Assembly: GCA_027484825.1 (NCBI GenBank)
Contig: JAIXSE010000036.1
Span: forward strand, 62,001-126,000
DNA length: 64,000 bases
From: Rubrivivax sp.
Lineage (GTDB): Bacteria > Pseudomonadota > Gammaproteobacteria > Burkholderiales > Burkholderiaceae_C
Direction: 5' to 3'
Shown: piece after piece, positions 8,586 through 64,000 of the stretch
Numbering within the stretch: the first letter of the stretch is position 1
How the letters are laid out: the number at the start of each line of letters is the position of its first letter
The notes under the pieces: generated by a model
What the model was told of the DNA's origin: nothing
The model's database searches: none
Seen by the model: the letters and a program-made list of their open reading frames with translations, nothing else
Made by a program: the position numbers and the translations under genes

Positions 8586-8619
8586 TCTCCCTGAGCCTCA
8601 GCGCTTGTCGAGTCGCTCT

Positions 8620-10124: not shown

Positions 10125-10146
10125 CGCTTCGTCGCCCGACGAAGCG
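10125..10146 (-). terminator. hairpin downstream of the kinase/receiver operon
   Basis: A perfect 9-bp stem (CGCTTCGTC, 10125-10133, with its complement at 10138-10146) encloses a 4-nt loop. It lies about 20 bp after the stop of the PAS kinase gene. On the minus strand it is followed by TTCTGT, a weak U tract, so termination efficiency may be modest. Confidence 0.5.
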
Positions 10147-10166
10147 CCAGGGCACGGGGCGTGCCG

Positions 10167-12397
<2,231 letters not shown>

Positions 12398-12401
<4 letters not shown>

Positions 12402-12961: not shown

Positions 12962-12974
12962 GCAGGGCTCCCGC

Positions 12975-14333: not shown

Positions 14334-14442
14334 GACAGCGTCTCCGGTGTGCGTGTGTATCCAAGTGTAGGACTGGCCTGCGGGTCGTGGTTCCTCTTCT
14401 GCATGCCGGGCGCCATGCATCGGCAGCACGGCCGCCAATTCA

Positions 14443-17400: not shown

Positions 17401-19080
17401 CCCTTCGATGTGGGCACGGTTGCGGCTCATCAGATCGGCGCCAAGCAGCTCCTGCATGGTGCGGCCCGCCATCTGGCTTTCATCCAGGCCGAACCAGGTG
17501 CGGTAGGCCTTGTTGGCGAAGCGGTTGCGCAGGTGGCGGTCCCAGTAGCCCACCATCGAAGGCAGTGCGTCCAGGATGTTGCGCAGGTCCCGCTGGGCGG
17601 ACTCCAGGCTGGCCGTGCGTTCCTTGACCTTGTCCTCCAGCTCCCGGGTGAGGCGCTGGAGCTGGCGCTCGGCCTCCTTGGCCTCGCTGATGTCCCGCAC
17701 CGTCTTGAGGATGCCGATGACGGTGCCTTCGTCGTTGCGCAACGGGGTTCTGGAGATGGCCACGTCGAATTCGCGTCCGTGGCGGTCGCGCCGCACCGTG
17801 TCGTAGGTGGGGACGGCGGTGGCGATCTGGGCGTCGGGGAAGGCGGCCCAGGTGTCCTCTTCATGCCGGTCGGGCGCGATCAGGTGGTCCAGCGGCTGGC
17901 CGATGGCCTCCAGGCTGGTGTAGCCGAACAGCGTGGTGGCGGCGGCATTCCAGGACATGACCCGGCCGTCCAGGGACACGCCGATCAGCGCATCGCTGGA
18001 CGCCTCCACCATCGCCGCCCGACGCGCCTGCTCCGCGCTGAGCGCCTGCTGGCGGCGTTTGGACTGGCCGTAGAGCCAGGCCATGCAGGTCAGCAGCAGC
18101 ACCCCCAGTGCGCCTTCCAGGGCCACCTCGCCCGGCGAGCGCAGGTTCAGGGAACGGATGAAGCTGTCGCTGGGCTGGATCTCGGCTTCCCAGCGTCGGC
18201 CGTAGACATCGAGGATCAACAGGGTGGGGCCGACACCATGCCGCAGGGTGCGGCCTCCGGTGGTGGAGAAGAAGGGCGCGGACCGTTCGCCGCCAACCTG
18301 CGCTTCGACATCCCGCAGGGTCAGGTCGTAGTACTCGGGGCGGCTGTCCAGGTTGCTCAGGACGTCGTCCACACTGATCGGGGCATAGGCCCAGCCGACG
18401 GTGACGTTCTGGCGGGCCACCTCGCTCTCCGGCGGCAGCAGCGTGCTGTAGATGGGCAGCAGCAGCAGGAAGGACTGGCGCTGCTTGCCCTTGGCCTGCA
18501 CCAGGGTGATGGGGCGGGTGATGATGGCCCGGGCCTCGGACATCGACCGCACCGCCGCCTCCCGCCGGCTGTCGTCCGAGGCGATGTCCAGCCCCACCGC
18601 CGCGGCGTTGTACTCCTGCGGCTCGATGTACTGGATGACAAAGGCTTCGCCGTCATTGGGCCCCAGCGTGTGCACGGCGAAGGCGGGCGCGGTGTCCTGA
18701 CGGGCCCGCTGGCTGAAGCTGTCGAGTTGGTCGCGCGGCACCCGGCGGATGAAGCCGAAGCCACGGGCACCGGGGAACTCACGGGTGATGTCGCGGGTGA
18801 GGCTGTAGCGACGGAAGTCCTCCCGGGACACACGGCCCACGCCTGCCGTGACCAAGGCACCGCGAGCACCGCGCAGACCGTATTCATAGTTGCGCATGCG
18901 CGACTGGACCTGCTCGGCCACCTCCTGGGCCAGGGCACGGCTGCGGGTGGCCACGGTGTCCTGGTTCTCCTGGTATTGCCAGACCACGCCCCCCACGGTC
19001 AGCACGACACCGGTCAGCAGCCCGACCAGGGCATCGCGGCCGGTGAGGGTGCTCCATCCGCTCCAGGGGGCCTTTTGCAT
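14443..19080 (-). CDS. large hybrid histidine kinase: CHASE, multiple PAS, HisKA, REC, Hpt
   Basis: A 1545-residue membrane hybrid kinase. TM1 lies near residues 18-35 and TM2 near 325-345, enclosing a periplasmic CHASE domain (ARGALVTAG, ARGFGFIRRV, YIEPQEYN). At least four PAS/PAC modules follow between about 365 and 870. HisKA has [11 protein letters not shown] with H908; the ATPase domain has DTGIGIAP and GGTGLGLSI; the receiver has LMDIHMPVMDG with D1201. An Ala/Asn-rich linker leads to an Hpt domain (HKLRGSAGN, H1402). It therefore carries a full internal phosphorelay. It starts 4 bp after the next kinase gene, so the two are co-transcribed. CHASE domains usually bind small extracellular ligands; the ligand is unknown. 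Confidence 0.92.
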   Translation of the reverse strand: MQKAPWSGWSTLTGRDALVGLLTGVVLTVGGVVWQYQENQDTVATRSRALAQEVAEQVQSRMRNYEYGLRGARGALVTAGVGRVSREDFRRYSLTRDITREFPGARGFGFIRRVPRDQLDSFSQRARQDTAPAFAVHTLGPNDGEAFVIQYIEPQEYNAAAVGLDIASDDSRREAAVRSMSEARAIITRPITLVQAKGKQRQSFLLLLPIYSTLLPPESEVARQNVTVGWAYAPISVDDVLSNLDSRPEYYDLTLRDVEAQVGGERSAPFFSTTGGRTLRHGVGPTLLILDVYGRRWEAEIQPSDSFIRSLNLRSPGEVALEGALGVLLLTCMAWLYGQSKRRQQALSAEQARRAAMVEASSDALIGVSLDGRVMSWNAAATTLFGYTSLEAIGQPLDHLIAPDRHEEDTWAAFPDAQIATAVPTYDTVRRDRHGREFDVAISRTPLRNDEGTVIGILKTVRDISEAKEAERQLQRLTRELEDKVKERTASLESAQRDLRNILDALPSMVGYWDRHLRNRFANKAYRTWFGLDESQMAGRTMQELLGADLMSRNRAHIEGALRGEAQAFERSIPRPDGRGVRHSLAHYLPDVVNGQVQGFYVLVHDVTELRESRVAAAESHARLALATSAAGIGVWEYDLIDGSATWDERMYALYRLDPRTGPQSDAFWREMIHPEDRAQVDARLQDCLHGRRNFNTEFRILWPDGQVRHIRAVARVEPNAEGSARRMIGVNWDVTDQKRAEMELVEASSLLRTVLESASEVSIIATDRDFIIRVFNSGAEKMLGYQANEVIGHATPGLIHLPAEIKARARELGLSLGRRIAGEQYFREPGAHGQTLVWTYRRKDGSTLPVSLVVTAMQDRQGQLLGYLGIAHDISAQLRHERMLLEAKASAEQANKAKSHFLANMSHEIRTPMNAVIGLGFLLEQTRLTAPQSELLTKMIRASQHLLGIINDVLDLSKIEAGELSISLQPFAPGELLDYLVDVMKVQAQQKGVSLVQHVPQPLPALVMGDSLRVNQILTNLLGNAIKFTDAGHVRLTTALLPAEPGHVRLRFEVEDTGIGIAPEAAELLFQPFAQGDSSITRRFGGTGLGLSIVRQLAELMGGQVGLSSQPGQGSRFWVELPFVLADESLITAPALPTSTARDALAGISVLVVDDSEINLEVAKRILESCGASVALATDGREAVDYLRQHAPHCDLVLMDIHMPVMDGMTATRIIRHDLVLPDLPIVALTAGALASQRQEARFAGMNDFIVKPFQPTEVIECITRLVKRARGLSGAGAETVAAGPPSPTAQAAGTADRVEGVRATKAASTANAANAANVSNVAALAPSAEGTEAADAAAAVDPMIDWPEIDGIHTQDVRQRLDGDRTLFLSLLGMLLKDHPAMPMPGTGGEDMPTMAARLHKLRGSAGNVGAAAVAATATLAETACRHGDLQTATGHVVRLNEQLAALAAAAAPWLGPKQIPAVMTGSHAPELADLLQLLRDQQAEALDSFDALSAPLRDRLGPERFGQARTLVEELRLAEAGALLGEWLQPPATAVSLDGAIP

Positions 19081-30186: not shown

Positions 30187-32655
30187 TTATTCCACCCAGC
30201 GATTGCGGCCCAGCCGCTTGGCTTCGTACAGCGCCGCATCGGCCCGCTCCAGGGCGCGCTCCCAGTTGCCGGAGAGCGTGTGCGGCGGGGCATTGTCAGT
30301 GCCGTCCTGCGCGCCGGGCTGTGGCAGCTCCGGAAAACTCGCCACGCCCAGGGAGGCGGTGCAATGCAGCACCTGGCCGGTGGGCAGGCGGATGGGAGCG
30401 TCGCGCAGGCTGGACAGCAGCCGTTCGGCCACCACCGCGGTTTCTTCGCGCCGGGCATGCCGCACCACGATCAGGAATTCCTCGCCGCCCCAGCGCACCA
30501 GCAGGTCTTCGCCGCGGGTCGCTTCCCGCAGGCGGGCCGCCAGCTCCACCAGCACCGCGTCGCCCGTGGCATGACCGTAGCGGTCGTTGATCTGCTTGAA
30601 GTGGTCCACGTCCAGCAGGAAGAACAGCAGGTCTCGCCCGGGCTGGCCGGCCTCCACCGAGGGCTCTGTCATCTCCGCGGGGCGGGCATGGGCCCGCAGC
30701 GCTTCGGCCACGGCCTTGTCGATGACCTGGGTGAGAAAACGGCGGTTGCGCAGGCCGGTGAGCGGGTCGGTGAGGCTCAGCTCCTGGATGCGGTCATTGG
30801 CCAGTTGCAGTTGCTGATGGCGTTCCATCAGCTCGCGCTGGGCCGCTTCCAGCGCGGCCACGGCCCGGCTGAGCTCGCGGTTGGCGGCCTGCAGCTCACG
30901 GGCCCGCGCCGCTTCCTTGCGGGCCATTTCGCGGTGGTGCTGGGCTTCGGCCAGCACGGTCTCACTGCGGTGGCGCGCTTCCATGGCCATGCCCTGGCGC
31001 TCGGTGGCGCGGCGCTTGTCGGCGGCCAGCGCCTGCAGTGCACCGCGCAGGGCCACGATGGCGTCAGGATCCCGGCGACGGGCCTGCAGCCGGTCGGCCA
31101 GCTCCAGCAAGAGTTCATGGCGCTGGGCGCCTTCGAGCTGTTCGTCGGCAATGCGCAACGCCCGCTCCAGCAGCGCCACCGGTTCGTCGGCACAGACTTG
31201 GGCCGTCCCCGCCTCCACCTGGGCCTGAGCCACGCGTGACAGGCAGATCAGCGTGCGCAGCGCCTGGTCCGGATCCAGATGGGGCTGCTGCAGCGCCTTG
31301 TCGAGCAAGGACCGGGCCTGCGCCAGATCCTGCCGGGCATGGGCCACGCGGGCCAGCCCGAACAGCGCGTAAGCGCGGTCTTCCACCAGTTCCACATGGC
31401 GGCCCTGTTCATGGACCAGCGTGAAGCCGCGCTCGGCGGCATCGATGTTCCCGCATTCCAGCTCGGCATCGGCCAGCGCCAGTTGTGCATTGAGGAAGTG
31501 GGTGGTGCGCGGCACCCGCGCCAGCACCGTCACCGCTTCGCGGGCCATGCGGCGGGCCTCGTCCGCCCGGCCCTGGCGCACCAGCACTTCGGAGAACACC
31601 GACAGGGTGCAGCCCAGCGGATGCGGCCAGGCGCAGTGGCGGGCCACGTCCAACCGGTGGCCCAGGCGTGCGGCGGCAGCGTCCAGGTCGCCCAGCTCCA
31701 TCAGCAGGGAGGCGGCATTGGCGTTGTCCAGCAGCGCCCGGCGCATCTGGCCGCATTCCTCCGAGGCCTGGATGGACAGCAGCGCATGGGCCAGGGCGGC
31801 ATCACAGGCGCCGCGGCCCCATTCGGTGATGAACAGGAAGAACTGGGCCAGGGCGCGCAGGGCGGGAGAGGATGCGTTTTCCGACCGGCGTGCCGGGGCC
31901 TTCCAGGCGATGCCGGCCGCTGTCGCATCTTCGAAGGCGGCGAAGCAGGCCAGCGCCATCTCGGCGGTCTGCAGGCGGTCGGTGTCGCCGGCGGCCTCGG
32001 CCAGCGCGGCGGCACTGCGCATGAACTGGTTGCGCATGCGGGCGTCGCCCAGGTCATGCACGATGTTGGCGGCCACCCAGTCGGCGTCGGACTGGCCCGG
32101 GAGATGGCCCAGGGCGCGGAATCCGTCGCGAGCCTCGTCCGCCAGGCGCAGGGCCGACTCATGGTCCCCGCGCAGGTTCCAGGCATCGGCCAGGGCCAGT
32201 TGCACCCGTGCGCGGGCATGGCGTTGCAAGGGGGTGTCGCCCTGGGTCAGCCACGGATCGGTCAACAGGGCCTCTGCCAGCGCGGGTGTGTGCTGACCGT
32301 CGTACTGGCGCAGGAACCAGGCCGTGGTGATCTGCTGGGATCGGTCGGACCCGGAGAGGCTGCCGAGGGCGCGGGTGAGGCCGTCCCGGTCGGCGAAGCG
32401 AGGGAGCAGCAGCAACGCGGCGAGGGGATCCTGCGTATCCAGTGCGGTGGGCGTAGCGGGCGTAACTGGCGTTGCGAACTCGGCGGCAGCGGCGGCAGCA
32501 ACGGTATTGGCCGCATCGGCCAAGGGCGCCCCACCGCTCGCCCTGGCAGGCAGGACGCCAACCGCGCACGTCGCCTGACTCAGCGTGTCGGGCAGGGCAC
32601 AACAGACGGAAGCCGGCCATGGGCCGCTCCGAGGCAACTTGGACTCCACGTTCAC
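30187..32655 (-). CDS. TPR-containing GGDEF diguanylate cyclase
   Basis: An 822-residue protein with an N-terminal array of TPR-like helical repeats (about residues 90-540), a coiled coil (about 540-630) and a C-terminal GGDEF domain. The active site is GGEEF near residue 722, an active variant. An RxxD product-inhibition site (RGED) sits five residues ahead, and LDVDHFKQINDRYGH is intact, so it should make c-di-GMP. Starts are GTG: either 32655 or 32649 (GAGGGAG stands 6 nt ahead of the second). The protein lacks membrane helices, so the TPR part is probably a cytoplasmic protein-binding sensor. It is a plausible source of the ligand for the c-di-GMP riboswitch at 55.7 kb (inference). Confidence 0.9.
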   Translation of the reverse strand: MNVESKLPRSGPWPASVCCALPDTLSQATCAVGVLPARASGGAPLADAANTVAAAAAAEFATPVTPATPTALDTQDPLAALLLLPRFADRDGLTRALGSLSGSDRSQQITTAWFLRQYDGQHTPALAEALLTDPWLTQGDTPLQRHARARVQLALADAWNLRGDHESALRLADEARDGFRALGHLPGQSDADWVAANIVHDLGDARMRNQFMRSAAALAEAAGDTDRLQTAEMALACFAAFEDATAAGIAWKAPARRSENASSPALRALAQFFLFITEWGRGACDAALAHALLSIQASEECGQMRRALLDNANAASLLMELGDLDAAAARLGHRLDVARHCAWPHPLGCTLSVFSEVLVRQGRADEARRMAREAVTVLARVPRTTHFLNAQLALADAELECGNIDAAERGFTLVHEQGRHVELVEDRAYALFGLARVAHARQDLAQARSLLDKALQQPHLDPDQALRTLICLSRVAQAQVEAGTAQVCADEPVALLERALRIADEQLEGAQRHELLLELADRLQARRRDPDAIVALRGALQALAADKRRATERQGMAMEARHRSETVLAEAQHHREMARKEAARARELQAANRELSRAVAALEAAQRELMERHQQLQLANDRIQELSLTDPLTGLRNRRFLTQVIDKAVAEALRAHARPAEMTEPSVEAGQPGRDLLFFLLDVDHFKQINDRYGHATGDAVLVELAARLREATRGEDLLVRWGGEEFLIVVRHARREETAVVAERLLSSLRDAPIRLPTGQVLHCTASLGVASFPELPQPGAQDGTDNAPPHTLSGNWERALERADAALYEAKRLGRNRWVE

Positions 32656-51947: not shown

Positions 51948-52810
51948 TGACCGAGCTGACTCCGGTCGCACGGCCGCGCCGCCGCATCGCCCGCCGGGCG
52001 TTGCAGCTGGGCGCGGCCCTTTTGTTTGTGGCCTTCCTCGCGCTGGGCACCTGGCAGGTGCAGCGGCTGGGCTGGAAGCAGGACCTCATTGCGCGGGTCG
52101 AGAAGCGGCTGTCGGCGCCTCCGGTGCCGGCGCCGTCGGCGGACCGTTGGGCGCGCATCACCAAGGCGGACGATGAATACCGCCGCGTGGTCGTGCACGG
52201 CGCGTTCGATCATTCGCGCGAGGTGCTGGTGGGCGCCAGCACGGTGCTGGGCACCGGCTACTGGGTGCTCACGCCGCTGCGCAGCCGTGACGGCAACTGG
52301 GTGATGGTGAACCGGGGCTTCGTGCCGCCGGAGTACAAGACCCGGGTGTCGCGCACGGCGACGGAAGCGCAGGGCGAGGTGGAGGTCATCGGGCTGCTGC
52401 GGCTGACCGAGCCGGGCGGCAGCCTGCTGCGCAAGAATGATCCGGCGGCGGGCCGCTGGTATTCGCGGGATGTCGAGGCCATTGGCCGGGCCCAGACGCT
52501 GGAAGGGCCGCTGGCGCCTTATTTCATCGACGAAGCGGATACGCGGCCCAGCCCCAACAGTCCCACCCCCGAGACCTGGCCCCGCGGCGGGCTCACCGTG
52601 GTCCAGTTCCCCAACAGCCATCTGTCCTATGCCTTGACCTGGTACGCCATGGCGGCGATGACGGCGGGCATCAGCATCTACCTGTGGCGCGAGCGGCGCC
52701 GGCGTCTGCGCGAGGGGCGACTGGATGACGGCGACGACGACAGCGACCACGACGGCGACGACGACGGTGACGCGGATGACAAGGCCCCCCGTGCCCCTGC
52801 GTCGTCCTGA
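51947..52810 (+). CDS. SURF1-family oxidase assembly protein
   Basis: A 287-residue protein with two membrane helices (LGAALLFVAFLALGTWQ near 22-38 and WYAMAAMTAGISIYLWR near 228-245) around a periplasmic domain. Family motifs are LGTWQVQRLGWKQDLI, WVMVNRGFVPPEY and NSHLSYALTWYAMA. SURF1 helps heme insertion into subunit I. In other bacteria a SURF1 paralogue is tied to a quinol oxidase, which fits here; no heme O synthase gene (cyoE) is present in this cluster. The C-terminal tail is an Asp repeat (DDGDDDSDHDGDDDGD), and its DNA also encodes the start of the next gene (35-bp overlap). Confidence 0.9.
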   Translation: MTELTPVARPRRRIARRALQLGAALLFVAFLALGTWQVQRLGWKQDLIARVEKRLSAPPVPAPSADRWARITKADDEYRRVVVHGAFDHSREVLVGASTVLGTGYWVLTPLRSRDGNWVMVNRGFVPPEYKTRVSRTATEAQGEVEVIGLLRLTEPGGSLLRKNDPAAGRWYSRDVEAIGRAQTLEGPLAPYFIDEADTRPSPNSPTPETWPRGGLTVVQFPNSHLSYALTWYAMAAMTAGISIYLWRERRRRLREGRLDDGDDDSDHDGDDDGDADDKAPRAPASS

Positions 52811-54206
52811 CCGGGAGCCCGGGGACAGCCGCTGGTCCAGCCGCTGGATGGGCTTGTCCGGCCTGCCGGGCCTGGCCAGCTTGTCAGGCGCCCTGGCGCC
52901 GGACAGCCAGGCCGGCCGCTCCAACCTGATGCAGATGGTGCAACTGCGCTGGCTGGCCGTGGCCGGGCAGTTCGCCACCGTGGTGTCGGTGCACTACACG
53001 CTGGGCATCCACCTGCCGGTGGCGGAGATGCTCACCCTGCTGCTGGTGCTGCTGCTGTTCAACCTGGCCTGCTGGGTGCGGACCCGCTGGGTGCCCAGCG
53101 TCAGCAATGTCGAGCTGTTTGCCGGCCTGCTGGTGGATGTGGCGGTGCTCAGCGGCCAGCTGTTCTACAGCGGCGGCGTCACCAACCCCTTCGTGTTTTT
53201 GTACCTGCTGCAGATCGCGGTCGGCGCGGTGCTGCTGCCGGCCCGCTACATCTGGCCGATGGTGTGGCTCACGGCCGCCTGCTTCCTGGCCCTGACCCAG
53301 TGGCATGAGCCGCTGCGGCTGCCGGACCTGGCCAGCCTGTCCCTGCCGCCGCACTATGTGGGTGGACTGCTGATCTGTTTTGCGATCAATGCATCGCTGC
53401 TGGTCACCTTCATCCATCGCATCAGTGGCAACCTGCGCCAGCGTGACGCGCGCCTGGCCGACCTGCGGCAGCGGGCCGCCGAAGAAGAACACATCGTGCG
53501 CATGGGCCTGCTGGCCTCGGGCGCGGCGCATGAGCTGGGCACACCGCTGTCCACGCTGTCGGTGATCCTGGGCGACTGGGCCCGCATGGCACCGTTTGCC
53601 GGCGACCCGGAATTGCGGCAGGAAATTGAAGAGATGCAGGTGCAGCTGCAGCGCTGCAAGTCGATCGTGAGCGGCATCCTGATGTCCGCCGGTGAGATGC
53701 GCGGCGAGGCCCCCGCCCTGACCACGATGCATGCCTTCCTGGGCGACCTGGTCGAGCACTGGCGGCGCACCCGCACGGCGGGCCGCCTGGAGTATCGACC
53801 CGACATCGACCTGCCGGACCTGCACATCATCTCGGATGTCGGTCTCAAGCAGATGATCGACAACATCCTGGACAACGCCCTGGAGGCCGCGCCCGGCCAG
53901 CCCATCCTGCTGCGGGCCTATGCGGAAGAGGACCAACTGGTGCTGTGCGTGCGCGACCGCGGCCCCGGCTTCCTGCCCGACATGCTGGAGCGTCTGGGCA
54001 AGCCTTATCAATCCAGCAAGGGCCGACCGGGGAGTGGTCTGGGCCTGTTCCTGGCGCTGAATGTCACGCGCTCGCTGGGCGGGCATCTGCAGGCACGCAA
54101 CCTGAGCCCGGAGGAGGTCGGCGGCGCGGAGGTGGAGATCCGATTACCACTGTCCGCACTGATGCCTCAGAGCCTCGCGGACAATGCAGCGCATGATGGC
54201 CGATGA
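52776..54206 (+). CDS. regB: RegB/PrrB/ActS-type redox-sensing histidine kinase
   Basis: About 476 residues with six predicted membrane helices in the first half. The RegB quinone-site heptapeptide GGVTNPF lies at residues 133-139; H252 is in the RegB-type H-box AAHELGTPLSTLSV; the redox-active cysteine region QRCKSIVSG has C294. The ATPase domain shows NILDNALEAAP, DRGPGFLP and GSGLGLFLAL. RegB kinases read the state of the quinone pool and control respiratory genes. The start is uncertain (ATG 52776 inside the SURF1 tail, or 52848). The placement after cyoABCD-SURF1 suggests that the oxidase is a target. It overlaps regA by 23 bp. Confidence 0.9.
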   Translation: MTRPPVPLRRPDREPGDSRWSSRWMGLSGLPGLASLSGALAPDSQAGRSNLMQMVQLRWLAVAGQFATVVSVHYTLGIHLPVAEMLTLLLVLLLFNLACWVRTRWVPSVSNVELFAGLLVDVAVLSGQLFYSGGVTNPFVFLYLLQIAVGAVLLPARYIWPMVWLTAACFLALTQWHEPLRLPDLASLSLPPHYVGGLLICFAINASLLVTFIHRISGNLRQRDARLADLRQRAAEEEHIVRMGLLASGAAHELGTPLSTLSVILGDWARMAPFAGDPELRQEIEEMQVQLQRCKSIVSGILMSAGEMRGEAPALTTMHAFLGDLVEHWRRTRTAGRLEYRPDIDLPDLHIISDVGLKQMIDNILDNALEAAPGQPILLRAYAEEDQLVLCVRDRGPGFLPDMLERLGKPYQSSKGRPGSGLGLFLALNVTRSLGGHLQARNLSPEEVGGAEVEIRLPLSALMPQSLADNAAHDGR

Positions 54207-54753
54207 AGAAGACCGCCTGCTGCTGATCGTTGAGGATGACGACGCCTTTGCCCGCACTTTGACCCGCTCTTTCGAGCGACGCGGTTACACGGTGCTTCGG
54301 GCGTCGACCCACGAGCAGGTGCATCAGCTGCTGGCCGAACGCGGGCCGGACGACACGCCGGAATATGCGGTGGTGGATTTGAAGCTGGCCTCGGGCGGCT
54401 CAGGCCTGTCCTGCGTGCAGACGCTGCATGAGCATGACCCGGCCATGGTCATCGTCGTGCTGACCGGCTACGCCAGCATCGCCACGGCGGTGGAAGCCAT
54501 CAAGCTGGGTGCACGTCACTACCTGGCCAAGCCGGCCAATACCGACGACATCGAGGCCGCCTTTTCGCGGGACCAGGGCGATGCGGAGGTGGAAGTGACC
54601 GAGCGGGCCACCACGTCGATCAAGACGCTGGAGTGGGAACGCATCCACGAAACCCTGGCGGCGACCGACTTCAACATCTCGGAGACGGCGCGTCGCCTGG
54701 GCATGCATCGGCGCACCCTGGCCCGCAAGCTGGAAAAGCAGCGGGTGAAATGA
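54184..54753 (+). CDS. regA: RegA/PrrA/ActR-type response regulator
   Basis: A 189-residue regulator (or 185-186 if translation begins at the ATGs at 54193 or 54196). The receiver keeps LIVEDDDAF, the phosphoacceptor Asp in VVDLKLASGGSG, VLTGYASIATAV and AKPANTDD; this loop is typical of RegA. After a linker comes a Fis-type HTH (WERIHETLAATDFNISETARRLGMHRRTLARKL) given here only in its key parts: ISETARRLGMHRRTLARKL. It pairs with the overlapping regB gene and should bind CGRC...GNCG-type sites; one candidate is upstream of cyoA. Confidence 0.92.
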   Translation: MQRMMADEEDRLLLIVEDDDAFARTLTRSFERRGYTVLRASTHEQVHQLLAERGPDDTPEYAVVDLKLASGGSGLSCVQTLHEHDPAMVIVVLTGYASIATAVEAIKLGARHYLAKPANTDDIEAAFSRDQGDAEVEVTERATTSIKTLEWERIHETLAATDFNISETARRLGMHRRTLARKLEKQRVK

Positions 54754-55324: not shown

Positions 55325-55682
55325 AATCAGAACTCCATGACGGTAGGGGGCCAACGCCGGGCGCCGCTGCACCGTTGACCGGGCAACAAGACTTTACCCA
55401 GCCCCCCATTGGCGGGCCCAGGACCCGAGCGGGACCCGATCCGTCGACTCTACTCCTGCGCCAAATCGGCATCGTGTCGAGGCCTTGTTCTCTGATCGCA
55501 CCCAGTGGGCGAAGTCGTGTCGCCCGCACCCATCACTGCGGACGACGACTCAGAGGCGGAACCGCGAAATTGCTAACGCCCGGTCGCGCTCCCGTCAATC
55601 ACCCCCTGGGGGCTGCTTCACGGATCGGATACGTCTGGATACATTGAGCCCACATTGGCCGGCCACTGAGCGACGACTCAGA
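55325..55682. other. intergenic region between the lipoprotein gene and the riboswitch
   Basis: About 360 bp without a credible gene. It must contain the divergent promoters for the lipoprotein and for the two-partner secretion operon. A 12-bp direct repeat, CGACGACTCAGA, lies at 55543-55554 and 55671-55682, the second copy immediately ahead of the riboswitch. I see no clear -35/-10 pair. Confidence 0.5.
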
Positions 55683-55778
55683 CGCTGGCCCCCAGGGCAA
55701 AACCGGCGCGAGCCGGTGACGCAAAGCCTCCGGTCTCCCGGCCTTCACGGTCTGCGGGAGATAGCGGGGCCGCCAGCG
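55683..55778 (+). ncRNA. c-di-GMP-I (GEMM) riboswitch
   Basis: The aptamer matches the GEMM-I consensus almost throughout. P1 pairs CGCTGGC (55683-55689) with GCCAGCG (55772-55778). The conserved AGGGCAAA leads into helix ACCGGC/GCCGGT (55702-55707 with 55712-55717) closed by the GNRA tetraloop GCGA. The invariant GACGCAAAGCCTCCGG (55718-55733) follows, and then the second helix TCTCCCG/CGGGAGA (55734-55740 with 55755-55761) and the conserved TAGCGGGG. The tetraloop should dock into a receptor in the second helix, as in known structures. It ends 79 nt before the TpsB start codon and so senses c-di-GMP to control the adhesin operon. The direction of control is not shown by the sequence. Confidence 0.95.
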
Positions 55779-55856
55779 CGGTTGTCATCGCGCTGAATGG
55801 CTTCTTCTGAAGTGATGCGCGCCTTGGGTTCACAAGAATCAACAAGCGCGTAAGAG

Positions 55857-57659
55857 ATGAAGCTGCATTCTTTGCACCTGCATGGGGAGGGCCAGGCAGG
55901 TGTCGGCACTCCCTTGTCCCTGATCCACCGGGCCGTCCGCACGGCCCTTTGCATGAGCCTTGGCATGGGCGCCGGCTGGGCCTGGGGTCAGGCCTCGCCC
56001 CCTGGTGCCGTCGACCCGGACGCCCAGCGCCAGCTGCAGCAGCAGCGGGAGGCGCAGCAGCGTCAGGCGCTGGAGAGGGAGCCGGATGTGCGACTGCAAG
56101 CCAGCGCACCGCCCAGCCGGCAGCGGCTGCGGGACGATGAATCGCCCTGTTTTGTCATCCAGCAGATCGAGCTCAAGGGGGCGGAGCGCCTGCCGGCCAT
56201 TGCCCGGCTGATCCGCGCCGTGGACGGCCCGGCGGGCGATGACGCGCCAGTGGGCCGCTGCCTGGGGGCTCAGGGCATTGGCACCCTGGTCACCCGCCTG
56301 CAGGACGCGGTCATCGAGGCCGGCTACATCACCACCCGGGTGCTGGCCGCGCCGCAGGACCTCTCCAGCGGTCATCTGGTGCTGACGGTGGTGCCAGGTC
56401 GTGTCCACCGCATCCGACTGCGCGAGGGCACCTCCCCCCAGGTGCGTCTGTCCAATGCCCTGCCCATCCAGGAGGGGGAGGTGCTGAATCTGCGCGACAT
56501 GGAGCAGGCGCTGGAGAACCTGCAACGGGTGCCGGGCGCCCAGGCCGATATTCAGGTGCAACCCGCGCAGGACACCACCGAGCCGGGCTGGAGCGACTTG
56601 GCGGTCAGCTACCAGGGCGGGCGTCAATGGCGCTGGCAGATGTCACTGGACGACAGCGGCAGTGAATCGACCGGGCGCTATCCCTTGTCGCTCACCGCGT
56701 CCCTGGACCATCCGCTCACCCTCAACGACCTGTTCTACATCACCCTGAATCGGGATACCCGCGAACTGAATCAACGTCTGCATGACAAACCGGGGCCACA
56801 TCCTGGCACCGGAGGACATGTCTTGCACTATTCGCTGCCCTGGGGGCATTCCCTGCTCAGCATCACCGTCAGCCGCAATGGCTACCAGCAGGTGGTGATC
56901 GGCGCCAATCAGCGCTATGTCTACCGCGGCACCAGCAGCAACGGCGAGCTCAAGCTCACCCGCATGCTGTGGCGTGATGCCCAATACAAATTCAGCGGCT
57001 TTGCCAAGCTGTTTGGCCGCTCGTCCCGCAACTACATCGATGACACCGAGGTGGAAGTGCAGCGGCGGCGCATCGGCGGCTGGGAAGCCGGCGTCACGCT
57101 GCGGCGTCAGGCGGGCAGCGTCTCCACCGACATGGAGCTCAGCCTGAAGCACGGCACCGGCGCCTTCCATGCGCTGGAAGCGCCGGAGGAGGCCTTCGGC
57201 GAGGGCAGTTCCCGCATGAACCTGCTGCAGGGCAGCTTCGGCGTGGCCGGCGCGGTGCCGCTGGGCGAGCGGCGGCTGCAACTGAGCACCCAGTGGCGCG
57301 GCCAGTATGCGCTGCGCCCGCTCACGCCGCAGGACCGCTTCTCCATCGGTGGCCGCTATACCGTGCGCGGCTTCAGCGATGCGTCGCTGTCGGCCGACAA
57401 CGGCCTGCTCATGCGCAATGAAGCCGAGCTGCCGCTGACCGGCATGGCCTCGATGTACCTGGGCCTGGACGCCGGTGTGGTGTCCGGCCCCAGCGCCGGC
57501 CGACTGGCGGACAAGCACCTGGTGGGCGCCGTCATCGGCACGCGCTTGCGAGGCAAGGGCCTCTCCCTGGATCTCTTCGCGGCCACGCCTGTGCAGCAAC
57601 CCAGCAATTTTCCGGTCGCCCGATTCACGGCCGGCTTCTCTTTGAGCTATTCGCAATGA
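55857..57659 (+). CDS. TpsB/ShlB/FhaC-family outer-membrane translocator of two-partner secretion
   Basis: A 600-residue outer-membrane transporter. A signal region (to about residue 45, GWAWGQ) is followed by a Gln/Arg-rich linker, a POTRA domain pair (FVIQQIELKGAERLP to about residue 230, with YITTRVLAAPQDLSSG and VVPGRVHRIRL) and a 16-strand beta-barrel (SLDDSGSESTGRYPLSLTA to the end). The loop-6 motif VRGFSD (in GGRYTVRGFSDASL) is the FhaC hallmark. The ATG is not preceded by a good ribosome site, which fits translational control by the riboswitch upstream. Its stop overlaps the start of the exoprotein gene (ATGA), so both are made together. Confidence 0.93.
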   Translation: MKLHSLHLHGEGQAGVGTPLSLIHRAVRTALCMSLGMGAGWAWGQASPPGAVDPDAQRQLQQQREAQQRQALEREPDVRLQASAPPSRQRLRDDESPCFVIQQIELKGAERLPAIARLIRAVDGPAGDDAPVGRCLGAQGIGTLVTRLQDAVIEAGYITTRVLAAPQDLSSGHLVLTVVPGRVHRIRLREGTSPQVRLSNALPIQEGEVLNLRDMEQALENLQRVPGAQADIQVQPAQDTTEPGWSDLAVSYQGGRQWRWQMSLDDSGSESTGRYPLSLTASLDHPLTLNDLFYITLNRDTRELNQRLHDKPGPHPGTGGHVLHYSLPWGHSLLSITVSRNGYQQVVIGANQRYVYRGTSSNGELKLTRMLWRDAQYKFSGFAKLFGRSSRNYIDDTEVEVQRRRIGGWEAGVTLRRQAGSVSTDMELSLKHGTGAFHALEAPEEAFGEGSSRMNLLQGSFGVAGAVPLGERRLQLSTQWRGQYALRPLTPQDRFSIGGRYTVRGFSDASLSADNGLLMRNEAELPLTGMASMYLGLDAGVVSGPSAGRLADKHLVGAVIGTRLRGKGLSLDLFAATPVQQPSNFPVARFTAGFSLSYSQ

Positions 57660-60600
57660 ACCGTCTCCAGTACCGCATCGTGTTCAATAAGCAGCGCGGC
57701 CAGTTGATGGCTGTGGCTGAGACTGTCCGGGCACAGACCAAGGCGGCGGGCCAGACCGACGGACCGTCGCGGCGTGGCCTGGCGACGCCGGAGACGGTGG
57801 TGCCCGTCGCCTGCGGACCGCCGAGCCTGATCGCGCTGGCAGTGGCCCTGGCGGCCGGTGCGGTGCTGACCTTGCTGCCGGTGCCGGCGGCGCAGGCCCA
57901 GTCCCGGGGCCAGGCCGCATCTGCGCAGCAGCCGTGGCGCAAACCGCCAACCCGCATCGTGGCGGACCCTTCGGCCCCGGCGAACCAGCAACCCACGGTG
58001 TTGACCGCGCCCAACGGAACCACGCTGGTCAACATCCAGACCCCCAGTGCGGCTGGCGTGTCCCGCAACACCTATGGCCAGTTTGACGTCGGGCCCGACG
58101 GCGCCATCCTGAACAACTCCCGCACCGACACGAGCACCCAGCTCGGCGGATGGGTGCAGGGCAACCCGTGGCTGGGCCGGGGCGAGGCGCGGGTCATTCT
58201 GAACGAGGTGAACAGCAGCGCACCGAGCCAGCTCAATGGCTATGTGGAAGTGGCGGGGCGTCGCGCGGAGGTGATCATCGCGAACCCGGCCGGCATTCAG
58301 GTGGACGGCGGTGGGTTCATCAATGCCAGCAGCGCCACGCTGACGACCGGCACGCCGCGCCTGGATGCGGCGGGCAACATCAGTGGCTTTGCGGTGCAGG
58401 GCGGGCTGATCCGCATCGACGGGGCGGGCCTGGATGCCAGCTCGACGGACTACACCGCGCTGCTGGCCCGTGCGGTGGAGCTCAATGCCGGCTTCTGGGC
58501 CAAGGAGGCGCGGATCCAGACCGGCACGCAGGTGATGTCGGCGGAGACCGCCGGGGGCGGGGACGGGGCCGGTGAGGGGCTGGCCGCGAGCGGCGAGCGG
58601 CCGCGGTATGCGCTGGACAGCACTGCGCTGGGCGGGATCTATGCGCAGCGGATCACGCTGGTGGGAACCGAGGCGGGGCTGGGGGTGCGTCAATCGGGCC
58701 AGATGGTGGGCGGGCAGCTGACCTTGCGGGCGGATGGGTGGTTGGACAACACCGGCACCGTCTACGCTCAGGACAGCAGCACCGACGCCCTGACCGTGCG
58801 CTCCGCCACCGGCGTGAGCAATGCCGGATGGATGGCTGCCAAGGGCTCGGTGTCGGTCACCGCCCCTCGGCTGCAAGGGGATGCTTCCAGCGTCACGGCG
58901 GCGGGCCTGAATGAAGACGGCTCTCTGGTCGCGGGAACCGGCGCGCTCTCGCTGAATGCCAGCGACAGCCTGCGCCAGTCCGGCCAGGTGATGGCTGGGG
59001 ACCAAATCCGCCTGAGCGCACCGCTGCTGGATGTGAGCGGCGCCAGCGTGCAGGGCGGTCAGTTGTCCCTGCAGGGTGGGGAGCTTCGCGCTGAGGCCGC
59101 TCAGTTGGCCGCGACGGGTTCTCTGCAGATGCATGCGGACGGCGCGCTGAGCGCCCCCTCCGCCCGCATGCTGGCGGGCGACATGCACCTGGAGGCGACC
59201 ACGCTGCAACTGACAGCGGCCGAACTGTCAGCATCAGGCCGCTTGAGCCTGCAGGCGCAGGGGCTGCTGAACACCAGCGGCGCATCGCTGATCGGCCAGC
59301 AATTGCAGGTGGCCGCCACTGACATCAACAGCCGCGGCGGTGAATGGTTGCACCTCGGTCAGGAGCGCTTCACCGCGCAGGTGACCGGGCAATGGCTGAT
59401 GGACGGCGGCCGCCTGGCCACCAATGCGCAGGACCTGGTGCTGAGCGCCGGCAGCCTCAGTGCGGGGCAGGCCAAGCTCGAGCATTACGGCAGCGGCACG
59501 TTCTCCATGACAGCGCCAGTGGCGGACCTCAGCGGCGCGGCGGTCACGTCCTACGGCAGCCTGGTGGCCGTTGGTGACCAGCTCACCCTGGACAACGCGT
59601 CCGTGCTGGCGCGATCGGTGACGCTGAGCGGCGAAACGTTGTCCCTGCAGCACACCGAACTGCGCAGTGCCACCACGGCCTCGCTCAGCGGCGGCACGAT
59701 CGATCATCGTGGTGCGTTGACAACGGCAGATCAAGGCGCCCGCCTGAGCGCCCGCCAGACGCTCAACAACGACGGCGGTCAGATTCATGCGGCCAGCGGA
59801 AGCATTGAGCTCACCGCAGGCGGGAACGTCAGCAATCGCGGCGGTGTTGTGTCCGCCCGCGACGCGCTGACGGTGGCTGCTGGTGCCCTGGACCAAGCCA
59901 ATGGCGCACTGCTCAGCGGGCAGGACGTGCGCCTGCGTCTGGACGGCGACTACCGGGAAGCCGCCACGGGCGCCGCTTCCTCGGTGCTGGCCAGTGGCAG
60001 CCTCAGTGTCACGGCGGCCGATATCGAGCAGACCGGCGTGATGCGCTCCGGCGGCAGCACGTCGCTGGAGGCCGCCGGTCATGCGCGCTTTGCGGGCTCG
60101 GTCTACGCCCAGGGCGCTTCGCAGTTGCGGGTCACGGGAGACGCCGCGGTCAGCGGCTTGATGGGGGCTCAAGGCGACCTGTCGATCAGTGCCGGCAGTC
60201 TGCAGGCCGCCAGCGGCTCCACCTTGGCCGCGGGCCTCGCCGAGAACGGCCAGATCCAGCCGCTGGCCGTCCTGTCGGTACGCTCACCGGGCGACTCGCA
60301 AGTGCATGGCGAGCTGCTGGCCGGTCATGCCAGCCTCAGCGCCTCGTCCCTGGACCTCACCGCGGCACAAGTGAGCACCACAGCGCTGCAGCTTCAGTCG
60401 GATCGGCAACTGACGACCGACGGTGCAGCGGTGCGCAGCTCCCAACTGGCTCTGCAGGCCGGTGACTGGTCCAACCGCGCGGGCCAGGTGGCGGTCACCG
60501 GCACACAGGCCCTGCAACTGCAGTTGACCGGGCAGTGGGACAACCGCGGCGGGAGTTTCCAGACCAATAGTGCGGACGCTCGCCTGTCCGCTGGCCGCAT

Positions 60601-63600
60601 CGACAACAGCGGCGGCCTGATCAGCACCAGCGGTACCGGCCTTCAGCTGCAGACCCCTCAATTCCTGAACCAGGGCGGTCTGCTCGCGGGCGCAGGCAGC
60701 ATTCAACTGAGCGCCACCGAGCTGGCCAACGGCACCGGCCAGATCAGCGGCCAGTCCGTCTCGCTGCAGGCCCAGCGGCTGGACAACGCGGCGGACGGCC
60801 TGATCGCCGCCAGCACATCGCTGCAATGGACGGCCGACCAATTCCGCAACAGCGGGGTGGTCCAGGCAGGCCAGGGGCTCGTCGGCACCACGCGGGGCCT
60901 GCTGGACAACCAGGGTCTGATCCGCGGCCTTGCGGCAGTGGCCTTGCAGGCTGACCAGCTGGCGCAGAACGGCACGGTCGCCGCGCAAGGGGATCTGAGC
61001 GCCCGGGCGCGCACGGTCAGCGGCAATGGCAGCTGGGCCGCCGGCCTGGCCACGGACAACACGCTCAGCGGCCCCGCCACGCTGACGCTGCAAGCCCAGG
61101 ACAGCCTCCAGGTGGGCGGCCAGGCCCTGGCAAGCACACGCGTCGCCATGGAGGCGGGCTCGCTGGCATTGCAGGGCAGCCAGATGCGGGCGGCGGAGGT
61201 GGCGCTCGCCACCACGCAGGGTGATCTGCATCTGGACGGCGCGACGGTTGGCGCCAGCGGCACGCTCCGCTTGAGCAGTGCCGCGCTGCTCAGCACCGCA
61301 CAGGCCACGCTCAGCGGCGCCAGCGTGGCCCTGTCAGCGGCGGACTGGTCCCACATCGGCGGTTCGCTGGCGCAGACGGATGCCAGCGGCGCACTGACCG
61401 TCAGCGTGGCGCAGCAACTCAACAACACCCGCGGCACCATTCAGGCCAATGCGGCCAGCGTGCTGCTGCAGGCTCAGACCTTCACCAATACCCAGGGCCA
61501 CCTGTTGCATGCGGGCACGGGCAGCCTGCGTCTGGACGTTGGCACGCTGGAGGGCGCTGGCGGCGAGCTGTTGACCCAGGCGAACCTGAGCATCACCAGC
61601 ACCGGCTCGGTGGATCTGAGTCAAGCCAAGACCCAGGGCCGGCAGGTCAGCATCACCGCAGAGGCGCTGCAACATCAGGGCGGGCAATCGCTCGCCAGCG
61701 GCGCCATGACGGTGTCGGTTCAGCAGAGCCTGGACAACACGGGCGGCATCGTCCAAAGCGGGGCCGACCTCACCGTCTCCGGCGGGCGTGTGCTCAACCG
61801 CGATGGCCAGATGACCGGCCAGAACGTCAGCATCACCGGCGCGGCCTTGCGCAACGACGGGCAGGGGCTCGTCCATGCGCAGGGAGACCTCAGCGTGCAG
61901 GTCGGCGATCTGAGCAATGCAGGCGCCTTGCAGGCCACCGGCGCGGCCAACCTGCACAGCACCGGCGACCTGAACAACAGCGGCGTGCTGCGCGCTCAGG
62001 GCGACCTGACGGTGACGGCCGATGGGGCCATGACCCATACCGGCAGTCTCACGTCACAAGGGAATGTCCAGCTGACGGCTGCGAGCCTGTCCGGCAACGG
62101 CACCTTGGCCGCAGGCCTGAAGGCTGACAACACGCTCGCGGCCACGGGCGATCTGACGGTGCAGACCACCGGTGCCCTGCAGCAAAGCGGTCAGGCCTTG
62201 GCAGCGGGGCGGCTGTCGATGAGCGGCGCTTCGATGGCGTGGCTGGGCGGCCAGCTCCAGGGCCAGCAGGTGGGCCTGTCCGCGCTCGCCGGGGATGTTC
62301 GCCTGGACCGCAGCCAGGTCCGCGGCGGCGACCATCTGACCATGACGGCCGCACAGGCCCTCCATACCGAGGGCGCCCAACTGGCGGCCGGCCAGGTCTC
62401 GCTGACGGCCACCGACTGGCATCACGCCGGCGGAACGCTGGTGCAGACGGCCAGCAGCGGCACGTTCACCATCGGCCTCAGCGGCCAGTTGGACAACACG
62501 GACGGCCAGATCTCCAGCAATGCGCAGGACCTGCAGCTGACGGCCAGCCAGATCACCAACACGCGAGGCAGCGTGACGCATGCGGGCGGTGGTGCGCTGA
62601 CGGTCTCGGCCGGGCAGTGGTCGGGCGCTCAAGGTCAGTTGCTGGGCGCGGGCACCGTTTCGTTGTCGCTGACGGGGGAGGCGGACCTTCGCGGCGCCAC
62701 CACCCAGGGCGGTCAGGCCCTCAGCATCACCGGCGCTGCGCTGCAGCATCAATCCGGCCGCATGCTCAGCGGCGGAGGGCTGACCGTCAGCGTGTCCGGG
62801 GACCTGGACAACACCAGCGGCGAGTTGGCCGCAACAACCGGCGCTCACCTGACGGCAGCTTCGCTCATCAACCAGAACGGGCAGATCACCGGACAGGCCG
62901 TTGAGCTGGACGTCGGCACGCTGAGCAACACAGGCCAGGGCACAGTGAACGCCCAAGGCACGTTGACGCTCCGTGGCGGCCAAGTGGTGAACGAGGGCGC
63001 GCTCCAGTCCGGCGGGGCGATGACGCTGGACGTCACCGGCGCGCTGGGCAACAGCGGCTCGGTCTACACCTTGTCCTCGGCGACGGTGAATGTCGGCACG
63101 GCCCTGACCAACAACGGCCTGATGGCGGCGCAGGGCGGGTTGTCCGCACTGGCGGTGTCCATGCTGGGACAAGGCACGTTTGCAGCCGGGCTCAAGGCTG
63201 ACAACACACTGGCCCCCTCGGGTGAGCTGCATCTGCAAGCCCAGCAAAGCCTGCAGAACGCGGGAGCCTTGGTGGCAGGCGGCAGCTTGACTGCCAGTGC
63301 TGCCACGCTGCAGCTGCAGGACAGCCAATTGACCGGTCAACAGGTGAGTCTGCTGGCGAGCCAGGGCGACTTGCGGCTGGGCCGGTCCGTGCTGGCCAGC
63401 AGCGGCGCGCTGTCGCTTACCGCTTTGGCCGGGCAATTGAATACGCAGGCCGCCACGCTGAGCGGGTCGTCGGTGGACATCGCCGCCCAGCAGTGGCGTC
63501 ACGCGCAAGGCGTGTTGACGCAGACCGCTACGGACGGCCACCTCACCGCCGCAGTGGCCACCACCCTAGACAACCAGGGCGGCCAGATCCAGGCCGTTGG

Positions 63601-64000
63601 TGGGACGCTGTCCTTGACGGCCCAGACCCTGCAGAACACGCAGGGCCGCATCGTGCAGGCTGCCTCCGCGCCGCTGGCCTCGACGCAGTTGAACGTGGGC
63701 ACTTTCGCAGGCGCCGGCGGTCAACTGCTGACCACGGGCAGCCTGAACCTGCAGGCGACCGGCGCGGTGGACCTGAACGCCGCCGTGACCCAGGCCAATG
63801 GGCTGACCCTGTCGGCGGCGACGCTGAGCCATCAAGCGGGCCGGACGGTGAGCACTGGGGCAGCCACTCTGACCGTTGCGGGACTGCTCGATAACAGCGG
63901 CGGCGGCATGTCGGCCGCAGGTCCGGTGATGATTGGCGCCGGCAGTTTGAGCAACGGCGTTTTTGGCGGCAGCGGTGGAACCGTGCAAGGCGATGGCGTG
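57656..64000 (+). CDS. TpsA filamentous-hemagglutinin-like adhesin (3' end outside window)
   Basis: Open for at least 2115 codons to the right edge. It starts with an extended signal peptide of type V secretion (ESPR: NRLQYRIVFNKQRGQLMAVAE), a hydrophobic core (about 57-80) and cleavage near PAAQAQ. The TPS secretion domain follows at about 110-310 with NSSAPSQLNGYVEVAG, IIANPAGIQVDGGGFINAS and LTTG. The rest is a beta-helix of hemagglutinin repeats (DNSGG, LNNTRG and DLTV type turns). A super-repeat of roughly 357 residues is visible in the later half, marked by tryptophan codons at 59345, 60467, 61346, 62417 and 63494. It may be an adhesin or carry a C-terminal toxin; the end is not visible. 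Confidence 0.95.
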   Translation, partial: MNRLQYRIVFNKQRGQLMAVAETVRAQTKAAGQTDGPSRRGLATPETVVPVACGPPSLIALAVALAAGAVLTLLPVPAAQAQSRGQAASAQQPWRKPPTRIVADPSAPANQQPTVLTAPNGTTLVNIQTPSAAGVSRNTYGQFDVGPDGAILNNSRTDTSTQLGGWVQGNPWLGRGEARVILNEVNSSAPSQLNGYVEVAGRRAEVIIANPAGIQVDGGGFINASSATLTTGTPRLDAAGNISGFAVQGGLIRIDGAGLDASSTDYTALLARAVELNAGFWAKEARIQTGTQVMSAETAGGGDGAGEGLAASGERPRYALDSTALGGIYAQRITLVGTEAGLGVRQSGQMVGGQLTLRADGWLDNTGTVYAQDSSTDALTVRSATGVSNAGWMAAKGSVSVTAPRLQGDASSVTAAGLNEDGSLVAGTGALSLNASDSLRQSGQVMAGDQIRLSAPLLDVSGASVQGGQLSLQGGELRAEAAQLAATGSLQMHADGALSAPSARMLAGDMHLEATTLQLTAAELSASGRLSLQAQGLLNTSGASLIGQQLQVAATDINSRGGEWLHLGQERFTAQVTGQWLMDGGRLATNAQDLVLSAGSLSAGQAKLEHYGSGTFSMTAPVADLSGAAVTSYGSLVAVGDQLTLDNASVLARSVTLSGETLSLQHTELRSATTASLSGGTIDHRGALTTADQGARLSARQTLNNDGGQIHAASGSIELTAGGNVSNRGGVVSARDALTVAAGALDQANGALLSGQDVRLRLDGDYREAATGAASSVLASGSLSVTAADIEQTGVMRSGGSTSLEAAGHARFAGSVYAQGASQLRVTGDAAVSGLMGAQGDLSISAGSLQAASGSTLAAGLAENGQIQPLAVLSVRSPGDSQVHGELLAGHASLSASSLDLTAAQVSTTALQLQSDRQLTTDGAAVRSSQLALQAGDWSNRAGQVAVTGTQALQLQLTGQWDNRGGSFQTNSADARLSAGRIDNSGGLISTSGTGLQLQTPQFLNQGGLLAGAGSIQLSATELANGTGQISGQSVSLQAQRLDNAADGLIAASTSLQWTADQFRNSGVVQAGQGLVGTTRGLLDNQGLIRGLAAVALQADQLAQNGTVAAQGDLSARARTVSGNGSWAAGLATDNTLSGPATLTLQAQDSLQVGGQALASTRVAMEAGSLALQGSQMRAAEVALATTQGDLHLDGATVGASGTLRLSSAALLSTAQATLSGASVALSAADWSHIGGSLAQTDASGALTVSVAQQLNNTRGTIQANAASVLLQAQTFTNTQGHLLHAGTGSLRLDVGTLEGAGGELLTQANLSITSTGSVDLSQAKTQGRQVSITAEALQHQGGQSLASGAMTVSVQQSLDNTGGIVQSGADLTVSGGRVLNRDGQMTGQNVSITGAALRNDGQGLVHAQGDLSVQVGDLSNAGALQATGAANLHSTGDLNNSGVLRAQGDLTVTADGAMTHTGSLTSQGNVQLTAASLSGNGTLAAGLKADNTLAATGDLTVQTTGALQQSGQALAAGRLSMSGASMAWLGGQLQGQQVGLSALAGDVRLDRSQVRGGDHLTMTAAQALHTEGAQLAAGQVSLTATDWHHAGGTLVQTASSGTFTIGLSGQLDNTDGQISSNAQDLQLTASQITNTRGSVTHAGGGALTVSAGQWSGAQGQLLGAGTVSLSLTGEADLRGATTQGGQALSITGAALQHQSGRMLSGGGLTVSVSGDLDNTSGELAATTGAHLTAASLINQNGQITGQAVELDVGTLSNTGQGTVNAQGTLTLRGGQVVNEGALQSGGAMTLDVTGALGNSGSVYTLSSATVNVGTALTNNGLMAAQGGLSALAVSMLGQGTFAAGLKADNTLAPSGELHLQAQQSLQNAGALVAGGSLTASAATLQLQDSQLTGQQVSLLASQGDLRLGRSVLASSGALSLTALAGQLNTQAATLSGSSVDIAAQQWRHAQGVLTQTATDGHLTAAVATTLDNQGGQIQAVGGTLSLTAQTLQNTQGRIVQAASAPLASTQLNVGTFAGAGGQLLTTGSLNLQATGAVDLNAAVTQANGLTLSAATLSHQAGRTVSTGAATLTVAGLLDNSGGGMSAAGPVMIGAGSLSNGVFGGSGGTVQGDGV

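Follow-up and report, generated by a model that had tools for sequence, protein, structure and literature searches.

In a genome of the genus Roseateles/Mitsuaria, an operon resembling CdiBAI, made up of tpsB, tpsA and a candidate immunity ORF, is probably controlled at the level of translation by a c-di-GMP class I riboswitch. We analysed a 64,000-nucleotide stretch of this genome (the window) together with related loci, and what was computed comprises the aptamer, the operon, a pretoxin domain, C-termini that differ among relatives, a conserved linkage between riboswitch and operon, and arms of a leader hairpin, H4, that match within each leader (features are collected in Table 1). In the mechanism we favour, once the aptamer has bound its ligand the downstream RNA would fold into a second hairpin, H5, burying the tpsB ribosome site; translation of tpsB would then drop and that of tpsA would follow by coupling, since the tpsB stop and the tpsA start share an overlap of 4 nt. 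In the unbound state, some leaders could pair their downstream sequence with the aptamer core, leaving the ribosome site exposed.

Table 1. Features of the riboswitch-linked operon, and domains matched in the C-terminal regions of TpsA from the window and its relatives.
Feature	Position in window	Strand	Basis or domains
c-di-GMP-I riboswitch aptamer (RF01051)	55686..55777	+	cmscan
Possible P1 5' strand CGCUG, pairing with CAGCG 55774-55778 (5 bp)	55683..55687	+	direct sequence reading
Hairpin H4, beginning one nt after C92	55774..55795	+	predicted fold
Hairpin H5, burying the RNA directly before the tpsB start	55816..55851	+	predicted fold
tpsB, CdiB/FhaC-like outer-membrane transporter, 600 aa	55857..57659	+	ShlB (280.9 bits), POTRA_2, POTRA_3
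tpsA, start of CdiA-like exoprotein, continuing past the window	57656..64000	+	ESPR, TPS, Fil_haemagg
L033 (window) TpsA C-terminal region			PT-HINT
L194 TpsA C-terminal region			PT-HINT plus Colicin_D
L195 TpsA C-terminal region			Toxin-deaminase
L196 and L206 TpsA C-terminal regions			Peptidase_C39
L197 TpsA C-terminal region			DUF6862
L198 TpsA C-terminal region			PT-HINT plus Deam_C
L202 TpsA C-terminal region			DUF637 plus PT-VENN
L204 TpsA C-terminal region			PT-TG
L205 TpsA C-terminal region			Endonuclea_NS_2

The assignment of the aptamer to the c-di-GMP-I family is firm. When the window was scanned with cmscan against 4227 Rfam families, RF01051 gave the sole match above gathering score (54.5 bits against a cut-off of 35, E 6.7e-08); it spans the model at full length (positions 1–87 of 87), and a whole-genome search with RF01051 recovered the same aptamer. 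The first-pass annotation, which had proposed a GEMM-I riboswitch from the letters of the sequence, is thereby borne out, and every core element that it had named could be located: AGGGCAAA at 55694–55701, a P2 helix capped by a GCGA tetraloop (55708–55711), GACGCAAAGCCTCCGG from 55718 with P3 after it, TAGCGGGG ending at 55769, and a possible P1, whose 5' strand had been counted in, so that its coordinates started three bases before ours. P3, the other helix, in which a receptor for the tetraloop would lie, reads as a plain UCUCCC/GGGAGA helix, and the P1 bases of relatives differ, with no base-for-base conservation. The segment 55678–55880 as a whole folds more stably than its dinucleotide shuffles (z −2.66), with 3 of 200 shuffles as stable.

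The ligand might be another cyclic dinucleotide such as cGAMP, which GEMM-Ib variants sense, since a change of the residue at position 20 shifts the preference of class I aptamers to cGAMP. In Vc2 numbering, residues G20, A47 and C92 would correspond to G55696, A55723 and C55773, and the aptamer thus has G, A and C at the three predicted ligand-contact positions. These three residues are given as ligand contacts of both Vc2 and Vc1 in PMC4744006, and the predicted G at position 20 agrees with Vc2, which binds c-di-GMP; this makes sensing of cGAMP or a similar molecule highly improbable here.

The aptamer lies between a divergent upstream gene, taken for that of a lipoprotein in the first-pass annotation and with a glycine-zipper match to Rick_17kDa_Anti (22.8 bits, just under the 24.2 cut-off), and tpsB, whose start is 79 nt downstream. 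Together, the RF01051 match and the Pfam domains of both genes confirm the earlier placement of the aptamer in the leader of a tpsB–tpsA two-partner secretion (TPS) operon. The full TpsA frame encodes 4972 aa (2656–17574 in locus L033; 5050 codons from stop to stop), and its C-terminal part contains repeats of the Fil_haemagg_2 type together with PT-HINT, a pretoxin domain (E 1.5e-18), beyond which about 190 residues extend to the C-terminus with no Pfam match. Past the end of the window, a candidate immunity ORF of 129 aa, likewise with no Pfam match, overlaps the tpsA stop by 4 nt. It is followed in the direction of tpsA by further small ORFs of 230, 175 and 121 aa (L033 18033–19904), none of them with a Pfam match, which may be spare toxin or immunity cassettes.

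We inspected 16 riboswitch-linked TpsA frames and, having excluded four that run off their contigs, compared the 12 that reach a stop. Over the first 360 residues of the window's TpsA, the proteins of the eleven relatives show 65–79% identity, and yet its C-terminal domain was found in only one of them (L204). The stretch preceding this domain is 57–76% identical in six relatives and 21–40% in the other five, in which the constant part is set off less clearly from the variable one because this stretch diverges too. When the last 170 residues were compared all against all, just two pairs matched, L033/L204 and L196/L206. Pretoxin, colicin, deaminase or nuclease domains were identified in seven of the 12 C-termini and a C39 peptidase in two more (Table 1), while the C-terminal regions of L199 and L203 gave no domain match at E 0.01. 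At the tpsA stop, all 12 loci have an ATG-initiated ORF of 68–335 aa (ORFs of at least 60 aa were considered), whose start, counted from the first base of the stop, lies between 13 nt upstream and 35 nt downstream and which in seven loci shares a 4-nt ATGA overlap with tpsA.

A separate observation concerns the L033/L204 pair, which stems from two species: the C-terminal domain common to both (about 60% identical over the last 170 aa) sits behind PT-HINT in L033 and behind PT-TG in L204. Since the same domain follows different pretoxin regions, exchange of the C-terminal module is suggested by these sequences.

The operon combines a CdiB-type TpsB adjoining a giant TpsA that has a TPS domain and FHA repeats; a pretoxin region and, behind it, a C-terminal domain that varies among relatives whose N-termini are conserved; and, directly after tpsA, a small ORF like an immunity gene, for which an immunity function is predicted. 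What it does not have is a VENN motif preceding the toxin. The VENN string was found in none of the 16 TpsA frames searched, the window's included (four of them cut by contig ends), and the PT-VENN domain scored in L202 only when the last 600 aa of the 12 complete frames were examined. VENN before the toxin characterizes the classical E. coli type of contact-dependent inhibition (CDI) and is not universal. Because conserved N-termini, exchangeable toxin-like C-termini and an adjacent small ORF are hallmarks of CDI, the operon is most likely a CdiBAI-like one, whose product would most likely pass a putative C-terminal toxin to other bacteria on contact and may have a role in adhesion as well.

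The first-pass annotation had taken the product for a plain FHA-type adhesin, a view not supported in that form, given the PT-HINT domain near the C-terminus, the overlapping candidate immunity ORF and the other toxin-like C-termini of relatives. A product serving chiefly in adhesion or in the biofilm matrix, its C-terminal domain being incidental, would agree with the FHA repeats and the TPS and ESPR domains of TpsA and with the inclusion of adhesins such as CdrA among TPS exoproteins (accessible text of PMC5422565). We nevertheless consider it unlikely, given how close PT-HINT lies to the C-terminus, the variation of C-termini behind conserved N-termini, the toxin-like domains named in seven of 12 proteins and the ORF adjacent to tpsA in every one of the 12 loci. 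A CDI-like function thus remains the preferred reading of the operon.

The linkage of riboswitch and TPS operon is conserved and kept in most of the genus. The window's TpsB is 93% identical to that of a Roseateles depolymerans DSM 11813 locus and 89% identical to that of R. terrae CECT 7247. We searched 60 genomes, the window's included, with RF01051 and found matches at E 0.001 or better in 27 of them; 53 of the 55 resulting rows were mapped to DNA (G049:C66 and G041:C156 were left unmapped), and searches of more than 40 genomes used stricter filters, with which weak matches may be lost. Downstream of 15 of the 53 mapped riboswitches lies tpsA, in 11 cases with tpsB as well, and all 15 belong to the window's genus, where they are spread over 11 of 16 genomes. 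A sixteenth copy (G004:C30) has the same kind of leader on a contig that ends 152 nt later. Because four of the 15 loci (L042, L045, L051 and L054) have tpsA without a recognisable tpsB beside it, the riboswitch accompanies the secreted protein itself.

Across the 16 genomes of the genus, RF01051 matches occur in 14, and of the 14 TpsB loci with at least 46% identity, 11 are preceded by the riboswitch, a 42-residue TpsB fragment in G012 being excluded. The TpsB orthologs without it are in G007 (68% identity) and G011 (54% and 46%), and neither the tpsB region of G007 nor the tpsA-like regions L190, L191 and L192 gave an RF01051 match at E up to 1. On named GTDB contigs, the riboswitch is present at seven of seven TpsB loci with at least 74% identity, which are those of records G001, G003, G006, G009, G010, G013 and G014 and so add no independent cases, and at none of 24 distant TpsB loci (32–39% identity), for some of which the upstream sequence is short. 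Among 250 genomes of the family, 74 have RF01051 and 34 have TpsB (E 1e-30 or better), the two being co-located, among the matches listed, only in G000, G001 and G583, the last from another genus and with a linked TpsB 64% identical to that of the window. An order-wide draw had RF01051 in 149 of 399 genomes. In the window's own genome, the riboswitch is absent at two other TpsB loci and at two further tpsA-like genes near contig ends.

The orthologs that lack a riboswitch in G007 and G011, and the ambiguous switching modelled for the window's leader (see below), would be expected if the aptamer were a relic, with c-di-GMP binding retained or lost and its control of the operon gone. This is quite unlikely, however, for the aptamer has been kept before tpsA even at the four loci with no recognised tpsB, and all 15 TPS-linked copies score above the cut-off. 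We compared 17 leaders (those of the 15 mapped TPS-linked riboswitches, that of G004, which is truncated, and that of G583), which are related rather than independent; their start codons were chosen manually, and in L042 and L051 the one used belongs to a short frame that precedes tpsA.

Two hairpins are predicted between the aptamer and tpsB. H4 overlaps the 3' strand of P1, so that H4 and P1 are mutually exclusive, and it occurs in the minimum-energy fold of 14 of the 17 leaders, being absent in L045, L051 and L054. The two arms of H4 correspond leader by leader: when nt 93–99 are taken as the 5' arm, 106 of 112 cells can be paired with the 30 nt that follow in the same leader, compared to a maximum of 103 when these windows were swapped among 16 leaders (0 of 20000 permutations reached the observed value) and of 95 when they were shuffled (0 of 2000). 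L058, whose H4 is identical to that of L060, was excluded here and from an arm-permutation test (105 of 112, maximum 96 in 5000) that this one replaced, since the hairpins used there had been delimited by eye, which favours matching. The folding energy of H4 was no better than that of dinucleotide shuffles, with a mean z of −0.71 in the 17 TPS leaders and −0.73 in 29 control riboswitches. As for H5, it leaves the ribosome site largely paired in the minimum-energy fold of most of the 17 leaders, and accessibility of this site is under the shuffle mean in all but one (L050), although only five leaders had three or fewer of 60 shuffles with accessibility as low.

Other mechanisms were considered and set aside. 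Intrinsic termination is not favoured, scans of 55370–55900 having revealed no terminator-like site and no sigma-70 promoter. Anti-aptamer pairing was clearly better than in shuffles (at most 7 of 300) in four of the 17 leaders and absent in others, and is not supported as a general mechanism. In minimum-energy folds that included upstream RNA, long-range pairings prevailed and no coherent pattern emerged.

The sign of switching was examined by restricted-ensemble folding, in which the cost of opening the ribosome site with the aptamer folded is compared to that in unconstrained RNA, tertiary contacts being ignored, and in which 12 sets served as controls, the nucleotides from the end of H4 to the ribosome site having been shuffled in each. 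The opening cost, bound minus free, averaged +2.93 kcal/mol over the 17 leaders (11 up, 3 down), with shuffled sets at −1.39 to 0.84 (−0.90 to 1.20 in an earlier run with 15 shuffled sets). The mean was 2.92 (11 up, 2 down; shuffled maximum 1.13) with P1 holding nt 93–98, 1.95 (11 up, 3 down; shuffled maximum 0.81) with 40 nt of upstream RNA, and 1.36 (9 up, 5 down; shuffled maximum 0.93) with both. Since the folded aptamer makes the ribosome site harder to open, beyond the shuffled controls, our models lean towards an OFF switch at high c-di-GMP, acting at the level of the ribosome site. For the window's leader alone the modelled sign is ambiguous, since the bound-minus-free value flips with the setting (+3.3, −0.5, −1.0 and −4.8 across the four); among 1500 structures sampled for it, four had the aptamer core paired downstream, 972 had the aptamer intact and 524 were of other kinds.

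The first-pass annotation had implied the opposite direction, with c-di-GMP promoting attachment, and here the comparative folding points to repression. An ON switch, in which c-di-GMP binding opens the ribosome site and cells produce the giant adhesin or CDI exoprotein as they attach to a surface, is a less probable but serious alternative. It could work through P1, whose formation would free the 3' arm of H4 to open H5, and is in keeping with the mutual exclusion of P1 and H4 in the window's leader, which opens more easily when bound if P1 is held and 40 nt of upstream RNA are present (−4.8 kcal/mol); moreover, Vc1-gbpA and Bc2-cap, riboswitches of attachment-protein genes, are ON switches (accessible text of PMC4744006 and PMC4933901 respectively). 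Set against this are the bound state's greater opening cost in 11, 11, 11 and 9 of the 17 leaders in the four settings, with a lower cost in only 3, 2, 3 and 5, and means that in each setting exceed all 12 shuffled sets. Moreover, six of the seven responding class I riboswitches of Clostridioides difficile are OFF switches, one of them before a putative adhesin, according to the available part of PMC6200980. An OFF switch is hence the sign that we retain for the operon.

The same genome has other class I riboswitches, its 5.66-Mb assembly giving three RF01051 matches. The second precedes fliE, fliF and fliG (identified by Pfam), with fliE about 500 nt after the aptamer, and the third, at 69.5 bits the highest-scoring of the genome, precedes a protein of 875 aa (L034 6330–8957) with no Pfam or NCBIfam match; genes of similar size (885–889 aa) occur in four other members of the genus. 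In riboswitches of the fliE type, the core has GGGCACACC with GGGTCGCAAAG in place of GGGCAAACC with GGGACGCAAAG, a paired change seen in ten of ten (L035 3429–3532, that is, G000:C32:12428–12531, and L037, L043, L046, L053, L056, L059, L061, L065 and L066); FliE, FliF and FliG were confirmed by Pfam in L035 only, the other nine being assigned from protein starts. Elsewhere in the order, c-di-GMP-I riboswitches precede DUF1631 genes in two families (L073 2358–4706 and L080 5894–8179) and a gene with ankyrin and adenylate/guanylate cyclase domains (L081 6598–7998), the last a possible link between two second messengers.

Within the window, enzymes of c-di-GMP metabolism had also been annotated. 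The diguanylate cyclase at 30187–32655 holds up, with a GGDEF domain in which RWGGEEF is preceded by RGED. Its proximity is weak evidence for a supply of ligand to the riboswitch, since c-di-GMP forms a diffusible pool. The supposed REC-HD-GYP protein (12975–14438, minus strand) does have REC and HD-type (HD_5) domains, but it may be inactive as a phosphodiesterase, since its motifs read LLHEIGK and HERLDGKGFP instead of HD..GYP. On the plus strand at 52725–54753, a histidine kinase, whose membrane part resembles PilS with a score below cut-off, and a short regulator of the REC-HTH_8 type adjoin cytochrome oxidase and SURF1 genes; we take the pair to resemble a redox pair of the RegB/RegA type.

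Several known systems share parts of this arrangement. Class I aptamers likewise occupy the leaders of attachment-protein genes in Vibrio cholerae (Vc1 upstream of gbpA; PMC4744006) and Bacillus thuringiensis (Bc2 upstream of cap, a surface adhesion protein; PMC4933901). As described in the accessible portions of these papers, gbpA encodes a single colonization factor under positive control, with no mention there of two-partner secretion or a toxin domain, and Bc2 is an ON switch acting through a transcription anti-terminator, unlike the window, which has no terminator-like site and a predicted ribosome-site hairpin. Clostridioides difficile, too, has several class I riboswitches in one genome before flagellar and surface-protein genes, mostly OFF and one before a putative adhesin, but in a Gram-positive host and, in the available text, with no TPS or CDI target mentioned (PMC6200980).

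Among protein systems, CdiBAI and BcpAIOB share with the window TpsB, a giant TpsA with a conserved N-terminus and variable C-terminus, and an adjacent small ORF, as far as the accessible text of PMC5422565 and PMC9487645 goes; the order B–A–small ORF fits CdiBAI rather than Burkholderia bcpAIOB, and the window's TpsA differs from the CDI proteins described there in having PT-HINT and no VENN. A riboswitch is nowhere mentioned in these accounts, and one Burkholderia CDI operon needs quorum sensing (PMC9487645, available part). The CdrAB system of Pseudomonas aeruginosa is likewise a TPS operon under c-di-GMP control, exerted by the protein FleQ and LapG proteolysis instead of RNA (PMC5422565, in the part available). 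Known roles of c-di-GMP riboswitches are in motility, chemotaxis and some adhesins (e.g. the accessible text of PMC6200980). Among the open papers searched, none joins a c-di-GMP riboswitch with two-partner secretion, and a few join c-di-GMP, riboswitches and hemagglutinin, including filamentous hemagglutinin; TpsA was absent among the matches listed that join riboswitch, c-di-GMP and adhesin, and contact-dependent growth inhibition, c-di-GMP and riboswitch co-occur in a P. aeruginosa review. The RNA is of a known class, and its use before a CDI-like operon, if confirmed, would be new as far as open-literature searches show.

Tentatively, and with somewhat less assurance than either control of the operon or the OFF sign, we propose that in Roseateles and at least one genome of another genus the riboswitch may directly gate contact-dependent antagonism, high c-di-GMP stopping synthesis of the CdiB/CdiA-type proteins while a sibling riboswitch stands upstream of fliEFG. 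If true, a single signal, acting only by way of RNA, would govern motility and contact weaponry jointly. With flagellar, large-protein and CDI-like targets behind three class I riboswitches of one genome, the genus is well suited for testing whether motility and antagonism are set in the same or in opposite directions. If confirmed, the decision between sessile and motile life would be tied to interbacterial killing without a protein regulator.
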